From an uncultured Pelagibacteraceae bacterium (GTDB taxonomy: Bacteria > Pseudomonadota > Alphaproteobacteria > Pelagibacterales > Pelagibacteraceae): DNA of 62,321 bases. How positions within the stretch are numbered: the first letter of the stretch is position 1; every line of letters begins with the position of its first letter. Below, one piece after another: positions 21,871 to 40,262 of the stretch. The notes under the pieces were generated by a model, which saw only the letters and a list, made by a program, of their open reading frames with translations, did not search any database and had not been told where the DNA came from. A program made the position numbers and the translations under genes. The DNA is taken from the NCBI GenBank assembly GCA_902552345.1, contig CACDGO010000005.1:1-62321 (forward strand), given 5' to 3'.

Positions 21871-21888
21871 AATAAAAATTATATTTAA

Positions 21889-21915: not shown

Positions 21916-21921
21916 TAGATT

Positions 21922-22881: not shown

Positions 22882-22898
22882 TTTGATTAAATGTAAAT

Positions 22899-23711: not shown

Positions 23712-24634
23712 TCTTTTTTAATAGGAATAGTTGGGTGTCTTGCTGTTGAAGTAACGATGTTTTTCTTTAATTTTACTTCTCTCAAAACGATATATACACC
23801 TGCTGCAATTATTATAAAGTTTCCTATATAATTATTAATTGTAGGTATCTCATTAAAAATAACATAACCCAAAAATACACCTGCAAAAATTTGAGTGTAT
23901 AAAATTGATCCAAAAATAGCTCCAGGCAGGTGTCTAGCGGCATTGATGACAAATATCATGGCTGTTCCCCTTGAAATTCCAGAAATGGCGTTCAACACTA
24001 AATCATTAAAAGTCATCTCTTTGAAAACAAAGAATACAAATATACCAGAAAACAATATCATAAAAATTTTTCCGAATATTAAAAATGAGAACAAACTCTC
24101 TTCATAACCATATTTTCTGACTATTAAATAACTGGCAGATGCAAAAATTGGACACAACAAAGCTATAAATGCGTAACTATTAATTTCGGCTCCAAAAGGA
24201 TTAATAGAAATAAGTGTTCCAATAAAACCAATTACTATAGCAGTAAATCTTTTCCATCTAACGACTTCACCTAAAAATAAAACCGATCCAATAGTAATTA
24301 ATAATGGAATTAAAAATACAATACTGTACATAGTAACCATTGGTAATAAATAGAATCCTGTGTAGGCAAAAAAAACAGCCAATACCATCGTTAAAGTTCT
24401 AAAAAAATGAATTTTTAAATTAGCACCCTTTAATTCTTTCCAGCCATCGAGGGTTTGGGTGTACAAAATAATAGGTATCAGAGCAAACAAGGAGTTAACA
24501 AAAATTATCTGTATTATGTCGTAATCTTCAGCAATATATTTTACTATTGCGTCTTGAGTTACAAATAAAAAATATCCAAGACAAGCTAGAAAAAATTCGG
24601 GAAGATAATTCTTCTCCGATAATTTTGAATTCAT
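23708..24634 (-). CDS. EamA/DMT-family permease
   Basis: A 308-aa inner-membrane protein with about ten hydrophobic helices in two EamA halves, typical of drug/metabolite transporter superfamily exporters (such as RhaT/YdcZ/S-adenosylmethionine-carrier types). The start overlaps the stop of the PhyH-like dioxygenase by 1 base, and the 3' end overlaps the convergent PanB-fold gene by 4 bases. It may export or import a substrate or product of the locus; the cargo cannot be read from sequence. Confidence 0.88.
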   Translation of the reverse strand: MNSKLSEKNYLPEFFLACLGYFLFVTQDAIVKYIAEDYDIIQIIFVNSLFALIPIILYTQTLDGWKELKGANLKIHFFRTLTMVLAVFFAYTGFYLLPMVTMYSIVFLIPLLITIGSVLFLGEVVRWKRFTAIVIGFIGTLISINPFGAEINSYAFIALLCPIFASASYLIVRKYGYEESLFSFLIFGKIFMILFSGIFVFFVFKEMTFNDLVLNAISGISRGTAMIFVINAARHLPGAIFGSILYTQIFAGVFLGYVIFNEIPTINNYIGNFIIIAAGVYIVLREVKLKKNIVTSTARHPTIPIKKD

Positions 24635-25617
24635 TAAATAATATTTGCTAGATCTCTTTTAGTTCCTTTGAAAGTAGGAAGAGGATATTTATAAGACCAT
24701 TTTCTTGGAATGCATTTTACTTTAGCTTTTTCCCATAAAGCTATCCATTGTTTGTAATTTTGTACTTTTATATTTTTTTTGTTTTTACTTTTAACAATAA
24801 AATTAGGCAATGGATCTCTTCCTGAAGGCTGACCTGCTTTATTATATCTTAAGTCCATACTTATTCTAAAATTTTTTGATTTATTTGGTAGTGAACAATG
24901 AAGTAGATATCTATTTAATAATATTATATCGCCGACATCAGCTTCGAGAGGCACGGTTGATAATTTATCGATTATTTCTTTGTCTCTAACTTCTACTTGT
25001 CCCTTACTTCCAAAATCGTGGTTAACAAGTCCAAATTTATGGCTTTCTTTTACAGCAAGCATACAACCATTTTCTATTCTTGTTTTAGTAAAAGGTATCC
25101 AACACGTTACTAATTCAGTGCCGTTCTGTCCTTTTTTATTCATAACGCCAGCATCTTGATGCCAAGGAGTTCTTCCAACAAGGCCGTCATTTAAATTCTT
25201 TTTTGCAACACCTTTTTCAGGTTGTTTGATTCTTGAATTTTGACAAGGATTAGAAGCTATCTCGGGACCTAGAATTTTTTCAATCTTATCTAAAATCTTT
25301 TTATTTTTAATTAAATTCCATATTGATTGACTTGCAAAAAAATCACTATTAGCGTTTATGTTTTTTTCAGGAAGTCTAATGTTAAAATATTGATCAAGTT
25401 CAGGAATATCTAAAGAAACCAAATATGAGTATTTTTTCTTAAACTCATAATTTAGTACTTTTACTTTGTCACTTTTAGGAACAAATCTATGAATGAGCCT
25501 ATCCATGATAAAAGCCATATCATTTAAAATTGGTTCTAAATCCTCTTTATAATCTAAAACACCCTTTAATCTGATGAAACCTTGTTTCTTAAAAATTTTT
25601 TTAATATTTTGGCTCAT
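24634..25617 (-). CDS. Phytanoyl-CoA dioxygenase (PhyH) family Fe(II)/2OG oxygenase
   Basis: A 327-aa non-haem iron oxygenase. The facial triad is visible as H153-Q-D155 and H240, with R251 for 2-oxoglutarate in NFRISMDLRY. PhyH-family bacterial enzymes hydroxylate diverse small molecules, including ectoine, phosphonates and amino acids, so the substrate is not fixed. It follows livG after a 38-base gap on the same strand and is coupled to the DMT permease. It is one of two Fe/2OG oxygenases in this transporter locus. Confidence 0.88.
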   Translation of the reverse strand: MSQNIKKIFKKQGFIRLKGVLDYKEDLEPILNDMAFIMDRLIHRFVPKSDKVKVLNYEFKKKYSYLVSLDIPELDQYFNIRLPEKNINANSDFFASQSIWNLIKNKKILDKIEKILGPEIASNPCQNSRIKQPEKGVAKKNLNDGLVGRTPWHQDAGVMNKKGQNGTELVTCWIPFTKTRIENGCMLAVKESHKFGLVNHDFGSKGQVEVRDKEIIDKLSTVPLEADVGDIILLNRYLLHCSLPNKSKNFRISMDLRYNKAGQPSGRDPLPNFIVKSKNKKNIKVQNYKQWIALWEKAKVKCIPRKWSYKYPLPTFKGTKRDLANII

Positions 25618-25655
25618 TGAATCGTAATGAATGGGAAAATATTATCAAATTCATT

Positions 25656-26453
25656 TTAGACTGCAAGTGCTTTTCTCATCTCTTCATCGTCCATTTTTTT
25701 ACCCAAATATGCCTCGATTACCGCATTATCATCTTTAACTTGAGCTGGAGTACCCTCTGCAATTTTCTGACCATGGTCAAAAACAGTTACTGAATTACAA
25801 GTATCCATTACGACTTTTAAAATATGCTCTATAATAATAAGAGTAAGGCCATATTTTTCTTTTAGCTGCATAATAATTTTCATTAAATTGTCTACGTTGA
25901 CTGGGGATAAACCTGCAGCTGGTTCGTCTAACATTAGTAATTTTGGTTTCATAGCGATTGCTCTTGCTAAAACTAATAATCTTCTCTGACCGCCAGAAAG
26001 CTCACTAGCATTTAACTCTGCATAGTCTGCTAATCCTACAAAAGAAAGGAGTTCCATCATTTCCTCTTTGATAGCTCTTTCTTGATCCCAGATTTTTTTT
26101 CTTCCTATAACTGCATCGAAAAACTTGTAAGGCACTCTAGTATGATATCCCGACATAACATTATCTATAACTGTCATATCTTGGTAAAGTCTTAGTAATT
26201 GGAACGTTCTTGATAAACCATAGGTAGCAATCTCATGTGGAGGTGCAAAAGTAATATCATGACCATCAAACTCAATATAGCTTCCAGGATCGCTATCATA
26301 GATTCCTGAAACTAAATTAAAAAATGTACTTTTACCTGAGCCATTGGGTCCAATTATTCCTCTAATTTCATTTTTTGGGAGTTCAAAATCAACTTTATTA
26401 ATAGCTTTCAAACCACCGAATGATTTAGATAATTGTTTAGTTTTTAAAATCAT
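25656..26453 (-). CDS. livG: LivG-type ABC transporter ATPase
   Basis: A 265-aa ATPase with Walker A GPNGSGKST (36-44), signature LSGGQRRL, Walker B LLMLDEPAAGLS and the H-switch IEHILKVV. The C-terminal AEGTPAQVKDDNAVIEAYLG is the LivG-type ending. It works with LivF, LivH and LivM in branched-chain-amino-acid-family (HAAT) uptake. It overlaps livM by 4 bases. The partner genes livF and livH are on the opposite strand 3 kb away. Confidence 0.93.
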   Translation of the reverse strand: MILKTKQLSKSFGGLKAINKVDFELPKNEIRGIIGPNGSGKSTFFNLVSGIYDSDPGSYIEFDGHDITFAPPHEIATYGLSRTFQLLRLYQDMTVIDNVMSGYHTRVPYKFFDAVIGRKKIWDQERAIKEEMMELLSFVGLADYAELNASELSGGQRRLLVLARAIAMKPKLLMLDEPAAGLSPVNVDNLMKIIMQLKEKYGLTLIIIEHILKVVMDTCNSVTVFDHGQKIAEGTPAQVKDDNAVIEAYLGKKMDDEEMRKALAV

Positions 26454-27442
26454 GTTGTTTTTTCTGTTCCAGTTTTCTTTTTAAATCTCTTTTCTAGGAA
26501 ATATCTATCAATAAAACCGCCTAAACCCTTAGGCATAAATAAAATAGTTAAGACTATTGTTAAACCAAATATTAAAAGCTGATATTTATATAATGGTCTA
26601 GTTAGGTCATAAACAATTGTAATTACTATAGCGCCAATAATTCCACCCCAAATATGACCAAGACCTCCTAGAACAACCATAGCTAAGAATGTTACCATTT
26701 CTATAACTGTGTAATTATTAGGATGTATGTATCCTGGAGGCATGTGAGCGTAAACTGCACCTGCCGCACCAGCAAACATAGCGCTAAGAATAAAAGCTAA
26801 GATCTTATATTTTTTTACATTAATTCCAGCGGCTGCAGCACAAATTGGATCCTCCCTGATAGACATAAACGCTCTTCCAACTCCAGATCTTAAAATACTG
26901 AATGAGAAGTAAACCGCTATAATCATTATTGTCATTGAGATGAAATAATATCTATCCGGAGAGTCGAAGTTGTAACCCATTAAAGAGGGTGTTGGAATAT
27001 CAGAAATACCAAATGTAGATCTAAAAAAGTTTCCGTTTTCAATAAATAATCTTATTGCCTCACCTCCACCTAATGTCGCTAAGGCTAAATAAGGACCTTC
27101 CAATCTAAAAGATGGAATTCCCATTGCTACTCCAAAAAATGCGGTAACTATTATAGCTATGGGTAAAGTTGCCCAAAAACCAAGTCCTAAATATAAAAAC
27201 AATGTTCCAGCGGTATAAGAACCTACTGCAAATAAACCAACGTGTCCTACTGTAACTTGACCGCAATAACCCTTAACAATGTTTAGTCCTGCGGCAACCA
27301 CAATGTTCACAAATATTAAAGTAGCTAAATGTGATTGATAAACATCCGTGAAAACTACTGACGGTACAAAAGCTAAGATGACGAAAGCTATAATAAAAGC
27401 AATAAAAGGATAATCTCTGATAATCGATTTAAATTTTTCCAT
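26450..27442 (-). CDS. livM: LivM-type ABC transporter permease
   Basis: A 330-aa inner-membrane permease with about eight to ten hydrophobic segments. The conserved NIVKGYCGQVTVGHVGLFAVGSYT stretch near 54 and FMSIREDPICAAAAGINV (the EAA-like loop) are typical of LivM, as is FLAMVVLGGLGHIWGGIIGA. It is placed between an Fe/2OG oxygenase gene (1-base overlap) and livG (4-base overlap). Substrate range of this transporter family is wide (amino acids, amides, urea, carboxylates). Confidence 0.92.
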   Translation of the reverse strand: MEKFKSIIRDYPFIAFIIAFVILAFVPSVVFTDVYQSHLATLIFVNIVVAAGLNIVKGYCGQVTVGHVGLFAVGSYTAGTLFLYLGLGFWATLPIAIIVTAFFGVAMGIPSFRLEGPYLALATLGGGEAIRLFIENGNFFRSTFGISDIPTPSLMGYNFDSPDRYYFISMTIMIIAVYFSFSILRSGVGRAFMSIREDPICAAAAGINVKKYKILAFILSAMFAGAAGAVYAHMPPGYIHPNNYTVIEMVTFLAMVVLGGLGHIWGGIIGAIVITIVYDLTRPLYKYQLLIFGLTIVLTILFMPKGLGGFIDRYFLEKRFKKKTGTEKTT

Positions 27443-28308
27443 TATCCAACTTCTCTCATTAAATAATCTGAGTCATGTGAAGATGTGAGCATTCTTTTGT
27501 TTGTTTTCTTAATTTTGGGTAAATAGCTAACGTTTTTATATCTCCATACAACAGGTTTGCTTAAAGCATAACTTCCATAAATGAAAAATCTTTTCTTACC
27601 TTTGATTTCTCTAAATAAAGATACACCATGGTAAGAGTTAGGCGTGGATTGAAAAAAAATTACACTCCCTTTTGACGGAGTAAATTCTTTAACTTTTGCT
27701 AGTTCAGAAATACCAGGAAATCTTTTAAAACTTTTTCTATATTTCATATCAGTTTTCTTTTTAAAAATTGATAAAGCTCCTCCATTTTTTTTTGGTATAT
27801 CGTTTAAATAAATAAGAAAATTATAAAGTCTTGTTACATCATCTCTGTGGGGCCTTAATCTATAACCGCCCCTAGAAACAGAAAAATCTATGTCTAAATT
27901 TACATTCGGGTTTTTATAAGTTTTACCTAACATTTTCATTAATTCTTTTGAATTCATCAATTTTTTATTTGTAAATTTTTCTCGCAAAAATTTGCTAGGC
28001 AAGTATGCATTAGACCAACCATAATCCTTAAAAGTTTTTTTAAATCTATTTTCAACTTTTTTGTAAAAAGATTGGCTATTAAATTGTTTATATAATTTGT
28101 TAGATAATTTTGATTTTTTTAAATAATTTTTAAAATTACTTGACCCTTTGTTAATTCTATTTCTACCGCCTTGTATTAAATCATCAAATGATTTTGCATT
28201 TCGAATTTCGTCTATAAGTTTTTCACAATCTTTTTCTGAAATAGCACTTTTGCCAACCATTACAGGAAAGTTGCTTTTTACTTTCTTCAATTTATTAACG
28301 TTTATCAT
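27442..28308 (-). CDS. 2OG-Fe(II) oxygenase, prolyl-hydroxylase-like
   Basis: A 288-aa protein with the double-stranded beta-helix motif set of Fe/2OG oxygenases: H154-R-D156 in RPHRDDVTRLYNF, the LIYLND strand, H227 in SYHGVS, and Arg239 or Arg240 for the co-substrate. It resembles the P4H/PKHD branch more than PhyH. It sits inside a transport operon, between the binding-protein gene and livM, and its stop overlaps the livM start. That placement suggests it acts on the imported compound or a derivative. Substrate unknown. Confidence 0.82.
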   Translation of the reverse strand: MINVNKLKKVKSNFPVMVGKSAISEKDCEKLIDEIRNAKSFDDLIQGGRNRINKGSSNFKNYLKKSKLSNKLYKQFNSQSFYKKVENRFKKTFKDYGWSNAYLPSKFLREKFTNKKLMNSKELMKMLGKTYKNPNVNLDIDFSVSRGGYRLRPHRDDVTRLYNFLIYLNDIPKKNGGALSIFKKKTDMKYRKSFKRFPGISELAKVKEFTPSKGSVIFFQSTPNSYHGVSLFREIKGKKRFFIYGSYALSKPVVWRYKNVSYLPKIKKTNKRMLTSSHDSDYLMREVG

Positions 28309-28324
28309 TTTTGTGGTTTCCTTG

Positions 28325-28356
28325 AAAAAATGAGCGGTAGTTTTACCTACCGCTCA
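28325..28356 (-). terminator. Intrinsic terminator after the binding-protein gene
   Basis: A perfect 10-bp stem, TGAGCGGTAG (28331-28340 on the plus strand) against CTACCGCTCA (28347-28356), with a 6-base loop. On the minus strand it is followed by TTTTTT. It starts 16 bases past the stop of the binding-protein gene and ends about 17 bases before the next gene in the same direction. The reverse strand also has a T-run, less directly placed. Read-through would give low expression of the oxygenase, livM and livG. Confidence 0.88.
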
Positions 28357-28371
28357 CAATTTTTTTAACTA

Positions 28372-29562
28372 TTATAAACCAGCGCTAGCATTAAATGTTA
28401 CAGTACCAGCAACTTTTGTTTTAAAGTTTTTTCCACCTTTAGTGTACTCAATCATAACAGGAGTTCTGTTACCATCTCTACACTCAGGCGTTCCTGATTT
28501 ACAGAAATTGATTGGACCAGAAGCTAAACCTCTGAAGTCAGTTGTCGCAGCAATTGCGTCTCTAACTTTATTTCTGTCAACTGCTAGATCTCCAGTGAAT
28601 TTAACTTTTTTAAGAGCTATCTCTAGAATATCTAGTAAGTCCATCATTTGTGAAAAGTCGTGACCAGGTACAACACCATATTTGTCTTTTACCATTTTCA
28701 CAAATTTCTTAGCTTCAGGTCTAGTGTCAGATGCAGCGAATGCAGCTGAGAAAGTTACACCTTTTGCAGCAGAACCAGCATTTATTGGTATCTCTACTTT
28801 AGAACCAATAGAAGCTGTTACTCTGTGAACAGATTTTGGTATTCCAACTTCATACGATTGTACAAGTCCTCTAACTGTTTCATCCAATAAAGCTGAAATT
28901 ACAAGAACTTCTGGATTAGTAGCTTTAGCTTTAGTTAAGTAACTTCTAAAGTCAGTTTCTTTTTCTCCAGATTGAACCATATAAGTTGGCTCAACGTTGT
29001 AGTTCTCTCTCATGTAGTCAGCTAAAGATAATGCAAAATCTTTACCAGCAGCATCTGGACCATAGATATAAGCTATCTTAGTACCTTGATTTTCTGCAGT
29101 AAATTTACCTTGTACAATTTTGTAAAATCTTGATGATACAGGTACTCTAAAAATGTATTCACTACCTTTTTTAGTAATGTCAGCATTTGTTGAGTGAGGT
29201 ATGATTTGTGGAACTTTAGCTTTAGCTGAAACAGGTACCATAGGTAATGTTACAGAACTACAGCTAGATCCAATTATAACGTGAACTTTATCTTGGTAAG
29301 CAAGTTTTGTTGCGTTTGCTACACCTTTTTCAGATTTACACTCATCGTTATAAAGTGTTAAGTCGATTTTTTGACCGTTGATAGTGCCTTCTTTATTCCA
29401 CTTTGCAACAGTATCAGTAATTAACTCTCCGTGTTTATAACCAACATCTGATAGCATTCTAAAAGAAACACCAATTTTGATTGTTTCTGCTTGAGCTAAA
29501 GTCGTGATTACTAAACCTGCGGAAAAGACAATTGCTGAAAAAACAAATTTAAGTTTATTCAT
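28372..29562 (-). CDS. LivK/AmiC-type periplasmic substrate-binding protein
   Basis: The 396-aa binding protein of the HAAT-family ABC transporter. It has a signal peptide (about 1-25, ending LAQA before ETIKIG) and the type I periplasmic fold starting IKIGVSFRMLSDVG. VHVIIGSSCSSVTLPM and FRVPVSSRFYK are typical of the Peripla_BP_6 family. I chose the ATG at 29562 over the one at 29574 because the upstream codons form a strong GGGGGAA ribosome-binding site. A terminator follows directly. It is divergent from livF. Confidence 0.92.
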   Translation of the reverse strand: MNKLKFVFSAIVFSAGLVITTLAQAETIKIGVSFRMLSDVGYKHGELITDTVAKWNKEGTINGQKIDLTLYNDECKSEKGVANATKLAYQDKVHVIIGSSCSSVTLPMVPVSAKAKVPQIIPHSTNADITKKGSEYIFRVPVSSRFYKIVQGKFTAENQGTKIAYIYGPDAAGKDFALSLADYMRENYNVEPTYMVQSGEKETDFRSYLTKAKATNPEVLVISALLDETVRGLVQSYEVGIPKSVHRVTASIGSKVEIPINAGSAAKGVTFSAAFAASDTRPEAKKFVKMVKDKYGVVPGHDFSQMMDLLDILEIALKKVKFTGDLAVDRNKVRDAIAATTDFRGLASGPINFCKSGTPECRDGNRTPVMIEYTKGGKNFKTKVAGTVTFNASAGL

Positions 29563-29588
29563 TATTTCCCCCATTTGTTATTTAATTG

Positions 29589-29618
29589 TTGCTAAGGCTA
29601 TAAAATAATAGTTATAAT
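29589..29618 (+). promoter_or_regulatory. Candidate promoter for the livF operon
   Basis: TTGCTA (29589-29594) and TATAAT (29613-29618) are 18 bases apart in the 111-base divergent gap between the binding-protein gene and livF. The likely start is near 29625, leaving a leader of about 50 bases. The minus-strand promoter for the binding protein must lie in the same gap, so the two operons can share a regulator. I see no clear operator. Confidence 0.5.
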
Positions 29619-29673
29619 GTCTATGACTAATAATTACATTTTTGGTAAATCAGAAAAAAAAATTGGAGGATGA

Positions 29674-30393
29674 TTGCTTAAGATAGATCAATTAATTTCT
29701 GGATATGGCTCTGTACAAATATTAAATGGAGCTAATATGAAAGTTAAAAAACAATCTATAGTTGCATTGCTCGGTGGTAATGGTACAGGCAAATCAACTA
29801 TTCTAAGAGCTGCATCTGGATTAATTAGATCGTGGAAAGGTACAATCGAATTTAACGGTGAGCAAATTCAAAACTTGCCTGCTCACGAAATAGTTGGAAG
29901 AGGATTAGTGCAAGTAACTCAAGGAAAGGATGTTTTCCCTGCAATGTCTGTCACTGAAAATTTAAAATTAGGTGGATTTATTTTAAAAAGCAAACAACAA
30001 CTGTCAGATAATTTAGAAAAGGTTTATAACTATTTTCCAAGATTAAATGAAAGAAAAGATCAATTGGCCGCAACTTTATCAGGTGGAGAGTTGCAAATGT
30101 TATGTATTGGAAGAGGGTTAATGTCTAATCCTAAAATGATAATGCTAGATGAGCCCAGTGCTGCTCTAGCGCCTCAAATAGTTTTAGATATCTTTAAAAA
30201 TATTAATAGAATTAGACAAGACGGATTAACAGTTCTTGTAGTAGAACAAAATGTTAGGATGGCATTATTGCTTGCTGATTACGGATATGTAATTAAAGAC
30301 GGTGTGATCAATGTTGAGGGCGATAGTAAGAAATTAATGTACGATGAAAGTGTAAAAGAGTCATATCTTGGAGGAACTAAAGCTAATGTTTAA
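29674..30393 (+). CDS. livF: LivF-type ABC transporter ATPase
   Basis: A 239-aa ATPase with Walker A GGNGTGKST, signature LSGGELQML and Walker B MIMLDEPSAALA, plus the LivF-type EQNVRMAL switch. The start is TTG, giving MLKIDQLISGYG, the usual LivF beginning. A GGAGGA lies at 29665-29670, only 3 bases before the TTG. An ATG at 29670 in another frame stops after three codons, so TTG is the only reasonable start. It is first in a long plus-strand operon. Confidence 0.92.
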   Translation: MLKIDQLISGYGSVQILNGANMKVKKQSIVALLGGNGTGKSTILRAASGLIRSWKGTIEFNGEQIQNLPAHEIVGRGLVQVTQGKDVFPAMSVTENLKLGGFILKSKQQLSDNLEKVYNYFPRLNERKDQLAATLSGGELQMLCIGRGLMSNPKMIMLDEPSAALAPQIVLDIFKNINRIRQDGLTVLVVEQNVRMALLLADYGYVIKDGVINVEGDSKKLMYDESVKESYLGGTKANV

Positions 30394-31423
30394 TAAACTG
30401 AGAATTGGAAAAAAAGGTGAAAATATCATATTCGGAACATTTGTGCTTCTCTATATCGGTTGGTGTGTGAATAGCCCCGATATGAATATTGAATCGCTCA
30501 AATCAGTTTTAACAATTGGTCTTTCAGTTGGTATTATTTATGGCTTAGTTGCCCTTGGAATTTCGTTAATCTACACAGGTCTAGATGTAGTTAATTTTTC
30601 TCACGGTGAATTTTTCATGATAGGTGCTTTTGCCGGTCTTACCATGTTTAATCTTTTAGGCAATCAAGATTGGATTTTTAATATATTTCCTGATGCTTAC
30701 GGTTGGATAATTTACGTAGTTTGTTTATTTACAGCCTTTGTTTCAATGGGTTTATTTGGGGTTTTTATTGAAAGAGTTTTCTTAAGACCTCTTACAAAAA
30801 AAGGTGGTGGTTACACTGTAGCTGGAATGGGAATAATCATATGTGGATTTGGTCTTTCAGTGGTTTTAATAAACGTTGCTTATTTAATTTGGAATCCAGT
30901 AGCAAAACCTTTCCCTGCTGAATTAGGTTTGCCAATGGAAATTGGAGGACTATTTTTACCGATTACTTATATTTGGATGATTGTAGTTGGTTTGTCTGTG
31001 GCTGCAGGTCTTTGGTTCTTTTTAAATAAAACAAAAATGGGACTAGGTATCAGAGCTGTAGCTTACTCCAAAGATGTTTCAAATCTAGTTGGAATAAATG
31101 TACCACTATACATATCAATTATTTTTGGTATTGCTTGCGCCATAGCAGGTATAGGAGGAACTTTAGTAGGTCCAACTTATCAAGTTGTTGTATTCATGGG
31201 TTATATCATTCTTATGAAAGCTTTTGCTGCTGCGGTCGTAGGTGGTTTTGGTAATCTGCCTGGTGCAATAGTTGGAGGTTTTACAGTTGGAATATTTGAA
31301 ACAGCTTCTTCTTTTTATATTTCTGGAAGTCACAAAGATTTATACGCCTTTTTATTAATGATTGTTGTTTTAATGATCAAGCCAACAGGCTTCTTTGGTG
31401 TTCAAGTTAAAATGAAAGCTTAA
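30386..31423 (+). CDS. livH: LivH-type ABC transporter permease
   Basis: A 345-aa multi-pass permease. GLVALGISLIYTGLDVVNFSHGEF is the LivH hallmark near residue 55, and AFAAAVVGGFGNLPGAIVGG near the C-terminus is typical. I chose ATG 30386 over TTG 30368 because GGAGGA (30370-30375) stands 10 bases upstream of the ATG. It overlaps livF by 8 bases. With LivM, LivG, LivF and the binding protein it completes one HAAT transporter across two divergent operons. Confidence 0.92.
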   Translation: MFNKLRIGKKGENIIFGTFVLLYIGWCVNSPDMNIESLKSVLTIGLSVGIIYGLVALGISLIYTGLDVVNFSHGEFFMIGAFAGLTMFNLLGNQDWIFNIFPDAYGWIIYVVCLFTAFVSMGLFGVFIERVFLRPLTKKGGGYTVAGMGIIICGFGLSVVLINVAYLIWNPVAKPFPAELGLPMEIGGLFLPITYIWMIVVGLSVAAGLWFFLNKTKMGLGIRAVAYSKDVSNLVGINVPLYISIIFGIACAIAGIGGTLVGPTYQVVVFMGYIILMKAFAAAVVGGFGNLPGAIVGGFTVGIFETASSFYISGSHKDLYAFLLMIVVLMIKPTGFFGVQVKMKA

Positions 31424-32367: not shown

Positions 32368-32372
32368 GACTT

Positions 32373-34286
32373 GTGTCTAAAGAAATTATTTGGCAACCAT
32401 CAAAAGAGCAAATTGAAAATTCAAAGCTAACCAAGTTTATACAGCATTGTAAATTAAATAATTACGATGAGCTTGAGAAAAAAAGTTTTTCTGATCCTGG
32501 ATGGTTATGGGACAATGTAATAAAATTTTCAGATTTAAAATTTTATAAACCTTACTCAAAAATATTAGATGAATCAAAAGGTGTTCCTTGGACAAGGTGG
32601 TGTATTGGAGGAAAAACTAATATAGTTTTAAATTGTATAGATCGACATAAAGATAAAGAATTTTTTAAAAATACTTTTATTTTTGCTGAAAGAGAAGACG
32701 GTAAAGAAAGCTCAATTACTTATGAAGAATTTGATAAGCAAATCTCAAAGGTTGGGAATGCTTTAAAAATAAATGGCTTTAAAAAAGGTGATGTAATCGC
32801 ACTTTACATGCCTCAATTTATAGAAACTTACATTGCTTACTTTGCTATTTTAAAAATTGGGTGTGTAGTGCTACCTTTATTCTCTGGATATGGGTCTAAA
32901 GCAGTTATTGAAAGACTCCAGATAGCAAAAGCTAAAGGTATATTTACTGTTGAGAAAACATTTAGAAAAGCAAAAGAAATAAGAATGTTTGATCAAATCA
33001 AAAATGAATTAGATCAAGTCATTTCTTTAGAAAAAATTTTTTTATTGGGAAAAGAAAAAGGAAAGAAAATCTTTAATTGGGAAAATTTTCAAAATGTTTC
33101 TAATAATTTAAAAACAGAGGAAACCGATGCTGAGGATCCTGCTATTATCCACTTTACATCAGGTACAACCGGAAAACCTAAAGGATGTGTTTATACTCAT
33201 ATTGGTTTAGTTACTAAGATGTCTTTTGATGAAGGAGTTTTAGCAGACTTTAAACAAACCGATATTCATTTGTGTATGGCTGATATGGGATGGATGGTGG
33301 GTTCTAAGTCTGCAACAATAGCTTCTGCACATGGAGCACAAATGGTAATCGCTGAGGGCGTTCCTGATTTTCCTGATGAGGTTCGTTTTTGGAAACTTAT
33401 TGAAAAATACAAGGTTTCCTGGACAGAGCTTTCCCCTGCTCTCATCAGAGCGCAAATGATTAAAAATGAAAAACTTTTTAAAGATTTAGATTTAAGCTCA
33501 CTTAGAATGATTTGTACTGGTGGGGAACCTTGGACGGAAAAACCTTGGAAATGGTTATTTCAAGTCATTGGTAAATCTAAAGTTCCTATTATGAATTCAG
33601 CTGGAGGTACTGAGGTTTCTGGTTCTATTTTACATTGTTGTTTACATCGTCCTTTTAAGGTTGGATCTTTTAATGCTCCCATTCCCGGAATGAGCGCAGA
33701 CATCTTAAATTTAGATGGAAAAAAAGTGTCTACAAGTGAAATGGGTGAATTGGTCATGAGAAAATCATCAATCGGATTAACAAAAAGTTTATGGAATGAC
33801 GATAAGCGTTACATCGATAATTATTGGAGTGTAATAAAAGATTATTGGGTGCATGGTGATCTTGCAAGTAGAGACGCTGATGGCCATTGGTACTTACATG
33901 GAAGATCTGATGATACCATAAAAGTATCAGGCAAAAGAATTGGACCATCGGAACTCGAGAGCGTAATAGTAAAAAGTGGAAAAGCAAAAGAGGTCGCTGC
34001 TGTTGGAATACCTGACGCAAATAAAGGGTCAAAAATTATTTTATCTATCGTTCCTGCAGAAAATAATGATCAAAAAGAAAGTTTTTTTGAAGATTTAGTT
34101 ATAAAAGATTTAGGGAAATCATTTAAGCCTGATAAGGTAATCTTTGTAAAAGATTTACCTAAAACAAGAAATATGAAAATTATGAGAAGAGTTATAAAAT
34201 CATGTTTAGCAAACCAAGACCCGGGTGATTTATCAACGCTATTAAATCCAGAATCTGTAGAGGAGATTAGATCACATGCAATTTAA
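32373..34286 (+). CDS. AMP-forming acyl-CoA synthetase (acetyl/acetoacetyl-CoA synthetase type)
   Basis: A 637-aa adenylate-forming enzyme that would activate a carboxylate to its CoA thioester. It has TSGTTGKPKG (262-271), a WVHGDLA segment with the ATP-binding Asp, the hinge GRSDDTIKVSGKRIGPSE, and the catalytic Lys602 in KTRNMKIMRR. Length and ends resemble acetyl- and acetoacetyl-CoA synthetases, but the substrate is open. The start is GTG at 32373. It lies between the PanE-like and crotonase genes and is the likely entry step of the locus. Confidence 0.9.
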   Translation: MSKEIIWQPSKEQIENSKLTKFIQHCKLNNYDELEKKSFSDPGWLWDNVIKFSDLKFYKPYSKILDESKGVPWTRWCIGGKTNIVLNCIDRHKDKEFFKNTFIFAEREDGKESSITYEEFDKQISKVGNALKINGFKKGDVIALYMPQFIETYIAYFAILKIGCVVLPLFSGYGSKAVIERLQIAKAKGIFTVEKTFRKAKEIRMFDQIKNELDQVISLEKIFLLGKEKGKKIFNWENFQNVSNNLKTEETDAEDPAIIHFTSGTTGKPKGCVYTHIGLVTKMSFDEGVLADFKQTDIHLCMADMGWMVGSKSATIASAHGAQMVIAEGVPDFPDEVRFWKLIEKYKVSWTELSPALIRAQMIKNEKLFKDLDLSSLRMICTGGEPWTEKPWKWLFQVIGKSKVPIMNSAGGTEVSGSILHCCLHRPFKVGSFNAPIPGMSADILNLDGKKVSTSEMGELVMRKSSIGLTKSLWNDDKRYIDNYWSVIKDYWVHGDLASRDADGHWYLHGRSDDTIKVSGKRIGPSELESVIVKSGKAKEVAAVGIPDANKGSKIILSIVPAENNDQKESFFEDLVIKDLGKSFKPDKVIFVKDLPKTRNMKIMRRVIKSCLANQDPGDLSTLLNPESVEEIRSHAI

Positions 34287-35046
34287 AGATATATTATATG
34301 AAGTCAAAGGTGACTACGCTCATGTCACTATAAATAGACCTAAAGTGTTAAATGCTTTTACACCAGTAACTCTTCAAGAACTTAAGACAGCTCTTGATGC
34401 TGCAGAAAAAGATAAAGAAGTTGGAGTAATAGTTTTATCAGGTGCTGGAGATAGAGCCTTTTGCTCTGGTGGCGATATGAATTGGGAAAGTTCTAAAGAA
34501 TTTCAAGATCATGAATACGAATTTCACATTCACTTAACAAAATGTAGTAAACCAATCATAGCTAAAGTTGATGGGTACGCGATTGGTGGTGGAAATCATA
34601 TGGCTTACTTTTGTGATTTAACTATAGCAAGTGAGAATTCTATATTTGGACAAAATGGTCCCAGAGTTGGTTCTCCAGCTGGAGGAGCTATCGTTGCCCA
34701 CTCTGCGAATATTTTAGGACATAAACGAGCAAGAGAAATGTGGATGACTTGTAAAAGATACTCAGCAAAAGAGATGATGAATTGGGGGTTGGTAAATTCA
34801 GTAGTGAAAAAAGATAAATTAGATGAGGAAGTTAAAAAGTATGGCGATGAAATTTTAAAAGCTGCACCAACTTGTTTAAAAATATTAAAGGCCAGTTTTA
34901 GAAAACAATTTGAAGAAATTTTAAAAATTACACAAAAAGGTATGGTTGAAGAAGTTGCTCCTGGTTATTTTAAAACTGGAGAACAGGCAGAAGGCGCAAA
35001 GGCCTTTCTAGAAAAAAGAAAGCCAAATTTCAAAAAATTTAGATAA
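34276..35046 (+). CDS. Crotonase-family enzyme, MenB/BadI-like
   Basis: A 256-aa enoyl-CoA hydratase/isomerase homologue. Oxyanion-hole segments AFCSGGDMNW (61-70) and GYAIGGGNHMA (100-110) are present. The stretch FGQNGPRVGSPAGG (124-137) followed by GHKRAREMWMTCKRYSAKE matches naphthoyl-CoA synthase MenB and ketocyclohexanecarboxyl-CoA hydrolase BadI more than ordinary hydratases. The MenB Ser-Phe-Asp reads Ser133-Pro-Ala135 here, so the MenB acid is missing. It probably cleaves or forms a C-C bond in an acyl-CoA. It overlaps the CoA-ligase gene by 11 bases. Confidence 0.85.
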   Translation: MQFKDILYEVKGDYAHVTINRPKVLNAFTPVTLQELKTALDAAEKDKEVGVIVLSGAGDRAFCSGGDMNWESSKEFQDHEYEFHIHLTKCSKPIIAKVDGYAIGGGNHMAYFCDLTIASENSIFGQNGPRVGSPAGGAIVAHSANILGHKRAREMWMTCKRYSAKEMMNWGLVNSVVKKDKLDEEVKKYGDEILKAAPTCLKILKASFRKQFEEILKITQKGMVEEVAPGYFKTGEQAEGAKAFLEKRKPNFKKFR

Positions 35047-36134
35047 TGAAAATTAAATCAATCAAAGCAATCACTTTGAGTATGCCGTTTAGCCATGGAG
35101 GAAAAAAGGTAATTTTTCATGGAAAAGAATGGAAAAGTTTAGAATTTAACTTAGTAAAAATTGAAACAGATAAAGGTATCACTGGTTGGGGTGAAGCCTT
35201 TGGTTATACAAGTTGGAAAGCAGTAAAAATAGCAATTGAAGAGATGGTGGCTCCTTTACTCGTTGGAAAAGATATGAGTAATATACCAGAACTTCTTTTA
35301 ACTCTTCAAAAATCTTTGCACTTATTTGGTAGATACGGGATAACAATGTTTGCAATATCTGGTGTTGAGATTGCATTATGGGATGCTTTAGGCAAAGAAA
35401 AAAATAAGCCAATTCATGAATTGTTAGGAAAAAAAAATAAAGATCTATTCAAAGCCTATTCAAGTCTTTTTAGATATGGTGATCCAAAAATAATAGAGCA
35501 AAAATGTAAGCAATCATTAGATGATGGTTACCAAGCTATAAAACTTCATGAAATAGAAAATGATTGCATTGAAGCTGGAAGAAAAGGAACAGGTAATCTT
35601 CCTTTAATGTTAGATACTAATTGTCCTTGGACTTATAAAGAAACTATTTCCAAAAAGGATTTTTTAAAAAGTATGAAACTTACTTGGTTAGAAGAACCTA
35701 TTTACCCACCAGAAGATTATGAAATTCTCGCAAAATTAAATAAAGAACTTGAAATACCTATAGCCTGCGGAGAGAATGCGTGCACAGAATTTGAGTTCAA
35801 ATCAATGATTAAACAAAAGGCAGCCACTTTTGTTCAACCATCAGTAATTAAAGTTGGTGGAATTTATGAGATGTTCAAAATAATCCGGCATGCAGAAAAA
35901 AATAATATATCTGTAATGCCACATACTGCTTATTTCGGACCAGGTTTTTTAGCTACACTTCAATTAGCTTCATTAATGGAAAAAGATACCTATATTGAGA
36001 GATTCTATTTAGATATCGATCAAGAATTTTACCCTAATTTTAAAAAAGCATTAAATGGGAAATATAAATTACCTTCAGGACCAGGTCTTGGTATTGACTT
36101 AGATTATAATAAATTAAGTAAATATGAAATATAG
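35046..36134 (+). CDS. Enolase-superfamily enzyme, mandelate racemase/muconate lactonizing type
   Basis: A 362-aa enzyme with the capping domain (about 1-130) and barrel of the MR/MLE group. Metal ligands are D190 in LMLDTN, E216 in WLEEPIYP and E243 in CGEN; catalytic bases are K166-L-H168 and H293 in MPHTAYFGPG. The His in the K-x-H motif and the C-terminal His suggest racemase or dehydratase chemistry on an alpha-hydroxy or sugar acid. Substrate unknown. It overlaps the crotonase gene by 1 base. Confidence 0.87.
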   Translation: MKIKSIKAITLSMPFSHGGKKVIFHGKEWKSLEFNLVKIETDKGITGWGEAFGYTSWKAVKIAIEEMVAPLLVGKDMSNIPELLLTLQKSLHLFGRYGITMFAISGVEIALWDALGKEKNKPIHELLGKKNKDLFKAYSSLFRYGDPKIIEQKCKQSLDDGYQAIKLHEIENDCIEAGRKGTGNLPLMLDTNCPWTYKETISKKDFLKSMKLTWLEEPIYPPEDYEILAKLNKELEIPIACGENACTEFEFKSMIKQKAATFVQPSVIKVGGIYEMFKIIRHAEKNNISVMPHTAYFGPGFLATLQLASLMEKDTYIERFYLDIDQEFYPNFKKALNGKYKLPSGPGLGIDLDYNKLSKYEI

Positions 36135-36774
36135 ATCTGTTTTATTCGTTCCAGGACATGAAGAAAAAAAAATTAAAAAGGCATATACATTAAATGCAGA
36201 TTTAATAGTTCTTGACTTAGAATCAACTGTACCTGAAGATCAGAAAGATCAGGCTAAAAAAATAATAAAAGAATGCAATGTTAATAAAGATCAAACATAT
36301 ATAAGGATAAATAATAATTTAGATTTAGAATTTGTAACATCAGAAAAATTCCCTGGAATATTTCTTCCATTTACAGAAACAAAAAAACAATTAATTGAGA
36401 TAGATATATTATTAAAAAAAACTGAGAAATTGAAAACTGATATAATCCCAATTTTGGAAAGTATAAACGGTCTAGCTAATCTTGAGGAAATTTGTTCTTT
36501 TTCAGAAAGAATTCAAATTATATCTTTTGGCTCTCATGATTTGGCTAAATCTATAAGTCTTAAGATTTCAGAAGATGAAAAAGAAATATTAGAATTTAGA
36601 AAAAATATAGTAAATAAATCTAAAAATATTAAGAGCCCAATAGATACCTCTTATTTAAAATTTAAAGATTTAAATGGATTTGAAATCTCATGTAATTTAG
36701 CAAAAAAATTAGGCTTTGGTGGTAAGGCTTGTATTCATCCAGACCAAGTTCAAATATCCAACAAAATTTTTTAA
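36124..36774 (+). CDS. Short CitE-like lyase (HpcH/HpaI/citrate lyase beta family)
   Basis: A 216-aa protein with the core of the CitE family: SVLFVPG (5-11), LDLE (30-33), R61, metal ligands E112 and D139, and the late GFGGKACIHPDQV. Relatives of about 270-300 aa cleave malyl-, citramalyl- or citryl-CoA. This one is shorter, mainly in the middle and the C-terminal tail, so it may be a minimal stand-alone form. It overlaps the upstream enolase-superfamily gene by 11 bases. Confidence 0.82.
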   Translation: MKYRSVLFVPGHEEKKIKKAYTLNADLIVLDLESTVPEDQKDQAKKIIKECNVNKDQTYIRINNNLDLEFVTSEKFPGIFLPFTETKKQLIEIDILLKKTEKLKTDIIPILESINGLANLEEICSFSERIQIISFGSHDLAKSISLKISEDEKEILEFRKNIVNKSKNIKSPIDTSYLKFKDLNGFEISCNLAKKLGFGGKACIHPDQVQISNKIF

Positions 36775-37178
36775 TGACAAATACTAAAAAACTTTTGTAC
36801 TTTGCTTATGGTACGAATCTTAATAAAAAAATTTTTTTAAAAAAATATAAAAACGCTAAATATCTAAGCAAGCATATTTTAAAGGATTTTGAATTAGTCT
36901 TTAGATCAAAATATAGGGTGCCAGATATACAAAGAAAAAAGGGTTCAAGTGTGAAAGGTATTATCTATGAAATAGATAAAATAACTGAGAAAAAATTAGA
37001 TAGATACGAAGACTATCCTAAGTTATATATAAAAAAATTTTTTAATAAAAAAAATAAAAATATAATGTATTATTTCATGAAAAGAAAAACTCCTATTTTA
37101 AAGCCTGCGAAATACTACCTTAAAGTCATGAAAAGCGGCTATCGACAAAATAACTATAAATTTAATTTCAAATATTAA
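36774..37178 (+). CDS. Gamma-glutamylcyclotransferase-like protein (AIG2/GGCT fold)
   Basis: A 134-aa protein with FAYGTNLN (10-17), the YGxNL binding loop of the fold, and Glu79 in LDRYEDYP at the usual catalytic-acid position. It releases 5-oxoproline in known relatives; the substrate here is unknown. I chose ATG 36774, which overlaps the previous stop in TAATG, because the N-terminal extension from 36729 would lie inside the CitE-like gene. It is very Lys-rich at the C-terminus. Confidence 0.8.
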   Translation: MTNTKKLLYFAYGTNLNKKIFLKKYKNAKYLSKHILKDFELVFRSKYRVPDIQRKKGSSVKGIIYEIDKITEKKLDRYEDYPKLYIKKFFNKKNKNIMYYFMKRKTPILKPAKYYLKVMKSGYRQNNYKFNFKY

Positions 37179-37179
37179 A

Positions 37180-38220
37180 GTGAAAAACAAAATAAAGATT
37201 GCAGTCGTTGGGATTGGCTTGATGGGAAGTCAACATTTAAAAGCTTTAAGTGTTTCAAAAAAAGCAAAGCTCCATTCAATTGTAGATGTAAATAAAAATT
37301 CTATAACACATGCTAAAAAATTTAAAGTTCCATTCTATAGATCGTCGACTGAATTACTTAGTAATAATAAACCAGATGCTGTAATTGTTGCTACACCTAA
37401 TCAGTTTCACGAAAAACATACGATAAGTTTTTTAAATGCAAAAATACCTGTTTTATTAGAAAAACCAATTTCCGATAATATTTCAAAAGCAAAAAAAATT
37501 ATTCAAAGCTCAAAAAAAAATAAAACTCATCTACTTATTGGCTATCATAGAAGACATAACAGTATCGTAACTAAAGTAAAGAAACAAATCGATAGCGGAA
37601 ATCTTGGAAAAATTGTTGCTGCTAATGTTATGTGCTGGTTATACAAAAATAAAGATTGGTACAAAGAAAAATGGCGTATTAAAAAAGGAGGAGGTCCTCT
37701 AGGTATTAATCTAGTACATGATATTGATCTTATTTGTTACTTATTAGGGCCCATAACACATGTTCAAGCAACAACCTCAAATAAAATTAGAAAATATGAA
37801 GTTGAAGATACCGCAATTGTTAATTTTACTTTTAGATCAGGTACTTTATGTACATTAAGTGTTTCTGATACAATTGTAGCTCCTTACAGTTATGAGTTTA
37901 CAGCTGGAGAAAACCCTGCATACCCTATAACAAATCAATCAGCATATTTTATTGGGGGGACAAAAGGCTCGATACAATTTCCTAATTTAAAACATTGGTA
38001 CAATAGAGGTGAGAGAAGTTGGTGGAAACCAATCTATCATAAGGATTTTAATATTCGTTTGAGTAGATTTACTTTAATAAATCAAATTGATCACTTATGC
38101 GATGTTGTGTCTGGAAAAGCTAAACCAAAAGTAAGTGGAAATGATGGCTTGCAATCGCTTAAAATATTTGATGCCATACTAAGAAGTACTAAAACTGGGA
38201 AAAAAATGAGAGTAAACTAA
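37180..38220 (+). CDS. Gfo/Idh/MocA-family oxidoreductase, copy 1
   Basis: A 346-aa NAD(P)-dependent dehydrogenase with Rossmann motif VGIGLMGSQH (10-19) and catalytic E94-K95-P96, then a C-terminal alpha/beta substrate domain containing LVHDIDLICYLLG. Family members oxidise inositols, sugars and sugar acids. The start is GTG at 37180, one base after the previous stop. It is the first of three adjacent but clearly different family members, which suggests successive steps in one sugar-like pathway. Confidence 0.88.
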   Translation: MKNKIKIAVVGIGLMGSQHLKALSVSKKAKLHSIVDVNKNSITHAKKFKVPFYRSSTELLSNNKPDAVIVATPNQFHEKHTISFLNAKIPVLLEKPISDNISKAKKIIQSSKKNKTHLLIGYHRRHNSIVTKVKKQIDSGNLGKIVAANVMCWLYKNKDWYKEKWRIKKGGGPLGINLVHDIDLICYLLGPITHVQATTSNKIRKYEVEDTAIVNFTFRSGTLCTLSVSDTIVAPYSYEFTAGENPAYPITNQSAYFIGGTKGSIQFPNLKHWYNRGERSWWKPIYHKDFNIRLSRFTLINQIDHLCDVVSGKAKPKVSGNDGLQSLKIFDAILRSTKTGKKMRVN

Positions 38221-39350
38221 TGAAAAGACTTAAACTTGGTATCATTGGTGGTGGCCCTAGATCTTGGATTGGTCATGTACATAGAATAGCCTCAAGATTC
38301 GATGATAAATATGAAATTGTAGCTGGCGTTTTTTCAAGAAATTATAAAATCAATCAATCTTTTGGGACAAGTATAGGAATAAAAAAAAATAGATGTTACA
38401 AAAATTATAAAGATTTGTGCTATTCTGAAAAAAAAATTAATAATGGTATTGATGTAGTAGCGATTATGACACCCCCTGGGAGTCATCAAGAAATAGCGGA
38501 ATTATTCATTAAAAATAACTTTCATGTAATATCTGATAAACCATTTGCAGGTTCTCTGCCTCAAGCTAAAAAACTTTATAAAACAATTAAAAGTAATAAA
38601 AAGATTGTTTACGGGCTCACACATAATTATTCGGCCTACCCAATGGTAAGACATGCTAAAAAATTAGTAGAAGATAAGAAGCTTGGAAATATCGAATATA
38701 TTAATGTCGAATATGTTCAGGATTGGTCTAACGGTAAAAAAGTTACCCCGCGTTCTGCAAAAAAAATATTTAAATGGAAATTAGATAAAAAAATAGCTGG
38801 AGTTTCTACTGTGCTTAATGAAATAGGATCTCACGCATATCATTTATGTAATTACATTACTGGTCTTAAAGGAAAAAGCTTATTTGCAGATATCAAGCAA
38901 TACTCAAAAAAAATTAAATTTGATACAAACGCTCAAGTTTTCATAAATTACGAGAATGGAGCAAAGGGTTTATTTTGGGCATCAACTACTGCTAAAGGGG
39001 GTGTTTATGGATTACGAATAAGAATATTTGGTTCGATGGGAAGTTTGGAATGGGTACAGAATGACCCCAACTATCTAAAATATAATGCTGCTAATGGTGC
39101 AACAAAAGTTTTAGAAAGAGGTTTCAATGAAAGTGGTTTTTCAAAAAACTTTTCAAGAATTAAGTACGGGCATCCTGAGGGATATTTAAGTGCCTTTTCA
39201 AATTTATATAAAGAAATTGCATCAAAAATTAATTCAAAAAGTAGTAAGAAAAAGTTTTATTTTCCAACAGCGTATGAAGGTTTGCTTACAGCAAGATTTA
39301 TAGACGGATGTGTAAAGTCATCATCCAAGAAAAAATGGGTAGCTTTTTAA
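38220..39350 (+). CDS. Gfo/Idh/MocA-family oxidoreductase, copy 2
   Basis: A 376-aa member of the family with IIGGGPRSWIGHVHR (8-22) as the dinucleotide-binding loop and D106-K107-P108 in place of the common EKP. The N-terminal loop GGPRSWIG and the late ATTAKGGVYGLRIRIFG are unlike copy 1, so this is another subfamily rather than a recent duplicate. It overlaps copy 1 by 1 base (TAATG) and abuts copy 3. Confidence 0.87.
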   Translation: MKRLKLGIIGGGPRSWIGHVHRIASRFDDKYEIVAGVFSRNYKINQSFGTSIGIKKNRCYKNYKDLCYSEKKINNGIDVVAIMTPPGSHQEIAELFIKNNFHVISDKPFAGSLPQAKKLYKTIKSNKKIVYGLTHNYSAYPMVRHAKKLVEDKKLGNIEYINVEYVQDWSNGKKVTPRSAKKIFKWKLDKKIAGVSTVLNEIGSHAYHLCNYITGLKGKSLFADIKQYSKKIKFDTNAQVFINYENGAKGLFWASTTAKGGVYGLRIRIFGSMGSLEWVQNDPNYLKYNAANGATKVLERGFNESGFSKNFSRIKYGHPEGYLSAFSNLYKEIASKINSKSSKKKFYFPTAYEGLLTARFIDGCVKSSSKKKWVAF

Positions 39351-40262
39351 ATGATTAAATCCTGTGTGATAGGATTATCAAAAGTTGGTTTAATTCATTG
39401 TAAAAGTTTAATAAAAATAAAAAAAACTTCGTTAAATTATATTTTTGATAAAAATTACAATCTGAGCAAAAGACTATCTAAAAAATTTAAATGTAACACT
39501 TCAAGAAACTTCGATAGTATATTAAAAAAAAAAGATATAGAACTGTTTATAATTGCATCACCTACAATTACGCATGATTTTTACATAAAAAAATTAATAA
39601 AATTTAGGAAAATGATCTATTGTGAAAAACCAATTACAAATAATAATAAAAACCTTAATAAACTCAAATACTTAATAAAAAAACATAAAATTAAATTTTG
39701 CGCTGGTTTAAATCGTAGATTTTCAAAGGAATATGTTGCTTTAAAAAAGAAAATTAATAAAAAAAAAGTTAATTATATCCAAATAATATCTAGATCGGCC
39801 AATCATAATATTAATTTATCATTAAGAAACGGAGGTCTTTTTTTTGATAAAGGATTTCATTTTTTTGATTTAGCTTGTTGGTTGAGTAATTCGAAACCAG
39901 AGAAAATGATTGTAATTTCAAAATCAATTAGTTCCGAGGATTTCTTAAATAATGGGGATTTCTCAGATGCAATAATTAATCTAAAACTCAGGAATAGAAT
40001 AGTCGTTGAAATAGTATTTAGTAGAAAGTGCAGATTTGGAAATTTTGAAAAAATTAAAGTGTATGGTGAAAAATTTTCATTAGACTCTGACAACTTTTCT
40101 GACAAAAAGACATTATATGATGACTTTTCTGTAAGACACAGAAAATCATACTTAAATTGTTTAAAAAAATTTATTGAAAGTAAAAATAATCTCTTAATGA
40201 ATGAAGCAATATTAACCCAAAAGATATGTGCTGATGCTTTGAAAAAAGCAAGGTATCAGTAA
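39351..40262 (+). CDS. Gfo/Idh/MocA-family oxidoreductase, copy 3
   Basis: A 303-aa, notably Lys-rich member. The dinucleotide loop is GLSKVGLIHCKSL (8-20) and the catalytic motif is E92-K93-P94. FDKGFHFFDLACWLS marks the usual His in the second domain. It is shorter than copies 1 and 2 by about 40-70 residues and even richer in AAA codons, so it may have a different origin. It is the last gene of the plus-strand operon and converges on lpxB with no gap. Confidence 0.85.
   Translation: MIKSCVIGLSKVGLIHCKSLIKIKKTSLNYIFDKNYNLSKRLSKKFKCNTSRNFDSILKKKDIELFIIASPTITHDFYIKKLIKFRKMIYCEKPITNNNKNLNKLKYLIKKHKIKFCAGLNRRFSKEYVALKKKINKKKVNYIQIISRSANHNINLSLRNGGLFFDKGFHFFDLACWLSNSKPEKMIVISKSISSEDFLNNGDFSDAIINLKLRNRIVVEIVFSRKCRFGNFEKIKVYGEKFSLDSDNFSDKKTLYDDFSVRHRKSYLNCLKKFIESKNNLLMNEAILTQKICADALKKARYQ

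Follow-up and report, generated by a model that had tools for sequence, protein, structure and literature searches.

A discrete insert between an HDAC-family gene and lpxB

The window analyzed here is the 62,321-nucleotide contig 5 (CACDGO010000005.1) of a SAR11 genome from an uncultured Pelagibacteraceae bacterium (GCA_902552345.1; 20 contigs totaling 997,704 bases, completeness 86%). It carries an island of 21 genes and 19.9 kb (20348..40262), in which the genes of a Liv-type (HAAT) ATP-binding cassette (ABC) transporter are interleaved with those of oxygenases, oxidoreductases, a coenzyme A (CoA) ligase, a crotonase and candidate lyases. The island is flanked by an HDAC-family gene (19422-20351, minus strand) and, on the right, by lpxB (40263-41408, minus strand). 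Its limits were set by comparison with empty sites. At four of these (L213, L214, L215, and L216; L- and G-numbers are the loci and genomes as labeled in this analysis), the window genes found follow the order gltX-PDDEXK-hyp224-HDAC-lpxB, whereas the window reads gltX-PDDEXK-[unassigned 17156-18481]-hyp224-HDAC-[SDR ... Gfo3]-lpxB. Because HDAC and lpxB are consecutive in this order of window genes at the empty sites, the insert corresponds to 20348-40262. The initial annotation had placed the left boundary at 24634, which is wrong, and the right end at 40262, which is exact. We rejected the HDAC-family gene as an island member since it occurs at empty sites.

The same insert is found elsewhere in relatives. 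Genome G018 has an empty site (L216), and yet its copy of the island lies on a different contig (L045), next to a gene that by eye resembles thioredoxin reductase. The last island gene adjoins lpxB in 11 of 20 fetched loci; among the remaining nine, some contigs or stretches stop earlier. With an empty site in relatives and a different position elsewhere, the island is a discrete, relocatable accessory insert. Its G+C content (0.310) is slightly higher than that of the remaining window (0.283). No tRNA was found in the window and no integrase among the proteins scanned from 12438 to 43233, unlike in a mobile island of the integrase/tRNA type.

Most neighbors in the two large operons overlap or lie at most 5 bp apart, the larger gaps being PhyH-LivG (38 bp) and 2OG3-LivK (63 bp). 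As first described, overlaps of a few bases are common: gaps range from -46 to +5 bp in the plus-strand operon and from -4 to +63 bp in the minus-strand operon. All genes named initially are present as intact open reading frames (ORFs), each with a Pfam match above cut-off. That inventory had missed four genes on the left, coding for a short-chain dehydrogenase (SDR), a weak hydratase relative (OHED), a DUF1907 protein and a PanB-like protein, and a GGACT-like gene on the right.

A HAAT transporter whose binding protein resembles amino-acid binders

The transporter is complete and split, as first noted, over two divergent operons that start 99 bp apart. The minus strand encodes the ATPase LivG (25656..26453; PF00005 and PF12399), the permease LivM (26450..27442; PF02653) and the periplasmic binding protein LivK (28372..29574; PF13458); the plus strand encodes the ATPase LivF (29674..30393; PF00005) and the permease LivH (30368..31423; PF02653). 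The island thus holds all five subunits of a HAAT (LivKHMGF) system, with Pfam families above cut-off (PF13458 once, PF02653 twice and PF00005 twice). It differs from such systems in that the subunit genes are divided between two divergent operons that also encode oxygenases, a ligase and a crotonase, and the proteins fall below the cut-offs of the E. coli-type Liv models of NCBIfam (LivG 235 versus 362 bits, LivM 209.5 versus 366, LivK 77 versus 477, LivF 223 versus 441, and LivH 114 versus 379).

Three LivK residues that presumably sit at amino-acid-binding positions are kept in the covering loci: Glu232 (79 loci), Ser106 (80) and Thr129 (80). Glu232 aligns with a Glu in 3td9 and 4gnr, both titled branched-chain amino-acid binders; at this position 3sg0 has Pro and 4ey3 has Gln, and we take these two to be aromatic-acid binders. 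This hints at an amino-bearing ligand, and against the import of a plain carboxylate that had been proposed. In genome G056, livK contains internal stop codons (L048:8011-9197; G056:C1:234081-235273), reflecting either a decaying gene or a sequencing error.

Two signals were noted around livK. A TGAGCGG...CCGCTCA hairpin (28330..28357, minus strand), followed in the window by a U tract and resembling an attenuator or terminator, lies downstream of livK in all nine aligned loci, window included; its outer stem is invariant and its inner pairs co-vary by eye. Such a hairpin could allow livK output above that of the remaining operon. In the divergent intergenic region (29575..29673), a sigma-70-like sequence toward livF at 29589-29618 is a consensus match only; the region scanned gave 11 such matches against 7.6 expected.

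A ligase with an altered pocket and a crotonase without the motif aspartate

Downstream of livH on the plus strand lie genes for a PanE/ApbA-like NAD(P)-dependent 2-hydroxyacid/2-ketoacid oxidoreductase (31423..32367), an acyl-CoA ligase of the acetyl-CoA synthetase superfamily (32373..34286; PF00501, PF13193, and PF16177) and a crotonase (34276..35046). The ligase shares with acetyl- and acetoacetyl-CoA synthetases the ACAS_N and AMP-binding domains and the catalytic Lys, which is retained, but scores 472 bits against a cut-off of 657. In an alignment with the acetyl-CoA-synthetase-like protein of the same genome, Gly replaces both the Val that precedes GEP and the second of the two Trp in DTWWQTE; we take these positions to be V386 and W414 of Salmonella acetyl-CoA synthetase. 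With both residues reduced to Gly, an acyl substrate larger than acetate is likely from the sequence. Acetate itself was rejected as a substrate given the altered acetate pocket and the scores below the NCBIfam cut-offs.

For the crotonase, MenB and BadI provide the best family models as well as the best solved relatives. It keeps Gln126, Gly128, and Ser133 but scores below both cut-offs (250 bits versus 467.6 for BadI, the 2-ketocyclohexanecarboxyl-CoA hydrolase model TIGR03210), and in all 88 covering loci the Asp of the GS-x-D/S-x-D motif is replaced by Ala135, giving GSPAGG. We assume that this Asp is the functional criterion for MenB/BadI crotonases; it is present in two MenB chains and in the BadI-like protein of L172. 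Pro-Ala at the motif site also occurs in L141, L142, Leisingera, and L145. Because of the sub-cut-off scores and the Ala for Asp, we rejected both BadI and MenB as names and do not call the enzyme ring-forming or ring-cleaving; it may hydrate or hydrolyze.

Comparable pairs occur in other bacteria. In L172, a 43% relative of the ligase stands beside a protein close to BadI (456 bits versus 467.6), and the same pair is present in L173; in Leisingera, an acetoacetate-CoA ligase stands beside a 60% relative of the island crotonase. Crotonase relatives of about 50% identity with YPTSG at the motif were seen on Salipiger and Celeribacter plasmids (L198 and L199), near sigma-54-type regulators and TRAP transporters.

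An enolase-superfamily enzyme, a short CitE-like protein and Gfo/Idh oxidoreductases

The plus-strand operon continues with an MR/MLE-type enolase-superfamily enzyme of the acid-sugar dehydratase/cycloisomerase type (35046..36134; PF02746 and PF13378), a short CitE-like candidate C-C lyase of the HpcH_HpaI family (36124..36774; PF03328), a relative of GGACT/AIG2-like gamma-glutamylamine cyclotransferases (36729..37178; PF06094; variable presence) and three Gfo/Idh oxidoreductases (all PF01408): Gfo1, which belongs to the core (37180..38220), Gfo2 (38220..39350; variable presence) and the fast-evolving Gfo3 (39351..40262; not detected in every copy). In the MR/MLE protein, Lys166, His168, Asp190, Glu216, Glu243, and His293 are conserved in all 88 covering loci. 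Among solved structures it is closest to MR/MLE proteins, galactonate dehydratase and anhydrogalactonate cycloisomerase among them, and it scores below the cut-off of all 14 NCBIfam models matched. The CitE-like protein is far from the equivalog cut-offs of CitE (106 versus 443 bits) and RipC (97 versus 375). With MR/MLE, SDR, Gfo, and an HpcH-family lyase, the island resembles acid-sugar catabolic clusters (MR/MLE with SDR or Gfo and an aldolase), but it adds a CoA ligase, a crotonase, PhyH, and a HAAT transporter, and its MR/MLE protein is sub-cut-off.

Oxygenases, a C11orf54-type protein and companions

The minus-strand operon holds two Fe(II)/2-oxoglutarate (2OG) oxygenases. The PhyH-family enzyme (24634..25617; PF05721) carries the His153, Asp155, and His240 triad in 72 of 72 covering loci, and the second, a 2OG-FeII_Oxy_3 protein of variable presence (2OG3; 27442..28308; PF13640), carries His154, Asp156, and His227 in 48 of 48. 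An EamA/DMT permease follows (23708..24634, minus strand; PF00892). The PanE-like protein exceeds the PanE/ApbA cut-off (TIGR00745, 245.5 bits versus 141), and its best solved relative is 3wfi, which we take to be a D-2-hydroxyacid dehydrogenase. At E 1e-60 it had no match in the plasmid collection.

At the left end, the SDR (20348..21094; PF00106) and OHED (21091..21870) are on the minus strand. OHED, a weak relative of HpaH/DmpE-like 2-oxo-alkenoate hydratases/decarboxylases, has no Pfam match, reaches 52.6 bits against the TIGR02312 cut-off of 351.5, matches a solved 2-keto-4-pentenoate hydratase at E 2.8e-4 and had no match in the plasmid collection at E 1e-25. The adjacent plus-strand gene (21922..22881) encodes a member of the DUF1907/C11orf54 family (PF08925, 214 bits versus a cut-off of 25). 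Like C11orf54/PTD012, it shows homology to 1xcr (E 2.2e-39), and its metal-type residues His269, 271, 283, and 285 are conserved in all 41 covering loci; it differs in being bacterial and in standing amid candidate oxygenase and dehydrogenase partners, its function being a prediction. A commentary (PMC12435205) describes human C11orf54 as a 3-dehydro-L-gulonate (beta-ketogulonate) decarboxylase, with beta-keto-acid activity reported in 2025, a fold resembling acetolactate decarboxylase and, in rotifers, a fusion to a 3HCDH dehydrogenase domain. Among 385 Alphaproteobacteria we found DUF1907 only in the island's own genome, and a Pfam-model search of 398 Pseudomonadota, a sample that overlaps the former, gave the same result; it was found in none of 14 control genomes, nor in the plasmid collection at E 1e-20. 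To our knowledge, the island is the first bacterial gene context for C11orf54-type decarboxylases, relatives of a human sugar-acid enzyme.

The PanB-like protein (22899..23711, plus strand; PF02548) is a non-canonical relative of ketopantoate hydroxymethyltransferase, at 113 bits against the PanB NCBIfam cut-off of 272. Paralogs of 45-57% identity (L200, L201, and L202) were seen on plasmids from rhizobia and from a marine alphaproteobacterium, beside a sterol-desaturase-family gene in all three annotated records and in clusters different from the island; the two rhizobial copies also have ribokinase and Rieske genes nearby, and a fourth plasmid record with a relative is unannotated at that place. 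These paralogs form an unassigned PanB subfamily. In L044, a 128-amino-acid unannotated ORF between DUF1907 and PanB (L044:2146-2532) is a possible small regulator.

The island is an accessory unit that stays together through rearrangements

Of the 61 genus genomes, own genome included, 22, or about one third, have an ortholog of the ligase (at least 84% identity); the G039 copy counted here is a partial gene at a contig end. None was found in 40 genomes from a second family within the order, of which 32 have only an acetyl-CoA-synthetase-like match of 32-34% and eight have none at E 1e-80. Among these 101 genomes, the crotonase occurs in 21, every one ligase-positive, LivK and PhyH in 22 each, MR/MLE and DUF1907 in 21 each (for DUF1907, 20 genus genomes besides the own), and PanB in 18. 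Some island genes occur without the ligase in G024, G026, and G053, the contigs of the latter two stopping within the cluster. Fisher tests of six genes against the ligase gave p values from 6e-9 to 2e-15, computed on rows that are phylogenetically related and on genes that are linked. As many genomes are incomplete, absences are soft.

Searching genome_contigs (84,980 species) with two short crotonase peptide patterns, which divergent relatives may escape, returned 74 loci, 71 from SAR11 and three from other bacteria at 54-58% identity. Of the SAR11 loci, 40 have full 10-kb flanks, and at permissive tblastn thresholds (E 1e-8, 36% identity) all 40 contain DMT, LivG, LivM, LivK, LivF, LivH, PanE, the ligase, MR/MLE, CitE, Gfo1, and the crotonase, the last by construction since the loci were chosen by it; PhyH is present in 39. 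DUF1907, OHED, SDR, and PanB lie partly outside these flanks. Gene order is not fixed: the SDR-OHED-DUF1907-PanB block stands at the other end, behind the Gfo genes, in L208, L050, and L209; OHED-DUF1907 directly follows Gfo1 in L109 and others; and L133 has an inner inversion of the LivK-PanE segment. On a 4.3-kb contig of G024 (L210), DUF1907, PanE, PhyH (61%), DMT (46%), and a Gfo2-like fragment stand side by side, which links the candidates for hydroxylation, oxidation, and decarboxylation. Cohesion despite changed order is better evidence of a shared role than linkage alone. Independent scatter of the genes in relatives was looked for and not found, in line with the expectation of a co-inherited unit.

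The island genes are under purifying selection. In comparisons with L044, L051, and L049 (GGACT left out), the ratio of nonsynonymous to synonymous substitution rates (dN/dS) was at most 0.27 (the value for OHED in L049, itself an upper bound), except for the SDR in L051 (0.65), a 32%-identical match and a non-ortholog.

In a sample of 385 Alphaproteobacteria, of which no more than three candidates each were scored, 19 genomes gave a ligase match at E <= 1e-130, at 36-44% identity outside the own genome. The complete gene set was absent from all 20 distant ligase neighborhoods inspected, which cover 17 of 18 genomes and all 23 places but three (G327 and one second place each in G459 and G365), although HAAT genes lie near some; nor was it found around crotonase loci L141, L142, and L145.

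A candidate pathway and its alternatives

The discrete insert, its gene content, its co-inheritance through rearrangements, the purifying selection, the intact active-site residues among those tested, and the altered ligase pocket are all direct observations. We give a probability of about 0.5 to the reading that, with this relocatable 20-kb island, some SAR11 cells take up a small oxygenated acid, possibly a zwitterion or one that bears an amino group, and degrade it in one pathway. The pathway would have two arms. In the first, the HAAT transporter would import the acid, PhyH would hydroxylate it, PanE (with Gfo and SDR) would convert the resulting alcohol to a keto acid, and DUF1907 would decarboxylate a beta-keto acid; we group these steps because the corresponding genes stand together in G024. 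In the second, the large-pocket ligase would form a CoA thioester, which the GSPAGG crotonase would hydrate, hydrolyze, or cleave, and the MR/MLE enzyme with the CitE-like and/or PanB-like proteins would dehydrate and split a residual polyhydroxy acid to central metabolites. The DMT permease would export a by-product.

Several observations weigh against a single pathway of this kind. Presence in the 40 full loci is partial for Gfo2 (25), 2OG3 (24), Gfo3 (24), and GGACT (18); PanB is absent from its expected place in L206, and the SDR place of G044 holds only a distant SDR (32%). The short G024 contig shows DUF1907-PanE-PhyH-DMT without a visible transporter, and LivK is broken by stop codons in G056. 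The annotated island genes include no obvious aminotransferase or deaminase, though LivK resembles an amino-acid binder; release of an amine by an Fe/2OG oxygenase is possible. Co-inheritance of linked genes is also partly a single event. Finally, two genomes also have MR/MLE-CitE-Gfo1 preceded by an epimerase-like gene and a TRAP transporter; with the G024 contig, this means that the set may be two pathways.

This last point underlies a serious rival, which we regard as a real possibility though we do not favor it: at least two pathways stacked in one island and kept by neighbor inheritance, a HAAT/CoA half (Liv, PanE, ligase, crotonase, PhyH, and DMT) and a sugar-acid half (MR/MLE, CitE, Gfo, and possibly SDR, OHED, and DUF1907). 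In L050:9943-15944 and L204:1-6899, an MR/MLE paralog (59-60%), CitE, and Gfo1 come after genes that by eye encode an NAD-epimerase-like protein, a TRAP transporter and an M24-type protein. This variant looks like a uronate/aldarate module, and it suggests that MR/MLE-CitE-Gfo1 is a separable sugar-acid module. The crotonase gene and MR/MLE are moreover separated by other genes in L050 and L052, and the PDB relatives of MR/MLE include acid-sugar dehydratases and a cycloisomerase. The human DUF1907 protein is reported to act on a sugar acid (PMC12435205). The two halves nevertheless meet in the window in a 1-bp overlap of MR/MLE and the crotonase gene, both are present in 40 of 40 full loci, and the only ligase-positive genomes without MR/MLE (G038 and G039, of 22) have contigs that stop within the cluster.

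A more specific version of the one-pathway reading is speculative, and we think it unlikely to hold in full. It supposes that SAR11 acquired a eukaryote-like, metal-dependent decarboxylase of the C11orf54 type, which became the center of an undescribed aerobic route for a common oceanic metabolite, with Fe/2OG hydroxylation, PanE-type oxidation, DUF1907 decarboxylation, a dedicated HAAT importer, and a new ligase/GSPAGG-crotonase pair.

Less probable still is an alicyclic-carboxylate pathway, in which the acid would be ligated to CoA, hydroxylated, and oxidized, and the resulting cyclic beta-keto acyl-CoA would then undergo ring opening by the BadI-like crotonase, the substrates coming from oceanic carboxyl-rich alicyclic matter. 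MenB and BadI are indeed the closest crotonase models, oxygenases are present, and the 43% ligase relative in L172 adjoins the near-BadI protein; the island crotonase, however, falls well short of the BadI cut-off and carries Ala in place of the Asp seen in two MenB chains and in the L172 protein, LivK carries an amino-acid-type Glu, and polyhydroxy acids suit MR/MLE and DUF1907 better. A plain branched-chain amino-acid transporter next to unrelated metabolic genes is the least probable of all: Glu232 aligns with the Glu of two solved amino-acid binders, and Ser106 and Thr129, for which we presume a binding role, are kept, but the insert is discrete with a fixed core, a transporter gene shares 1 bp with an enzyme gene at both LivH-PanE and LivM-2OG3, and all five Liv proteins score below the NCBIfam Liv cut-offs.

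Significance and further observations

SAR11 are very common ocean bacteria with small, strongly streamlined genomes. Since a 21-gene unit under purifying selection is kept in about one third of the sampled genus despite small genomes, the compound would be worth having in the open ocean, and the identity of the LivK ligand becomes a concrete, testable question. The single protein families are known; as the initial annotation held, we found no paper on their exact combination in the open-licence literature searched, nor an open-licence paper on SAR11 and mandelate racemase. Passages of PMC5395668 propose ring oxidation in SAR202 and, so far as they go, do not describe the SAR11 set reported here.

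Elsewhere in the window, an Rfam scan of its whole length returned zero matches at the gathering threshold. Left of the island, 18510-19184 encodes a protein with a long Pro-Glu repeat stretch and 49-85% identity in relatives; it belongs to the portion of the site that island-free loci share.

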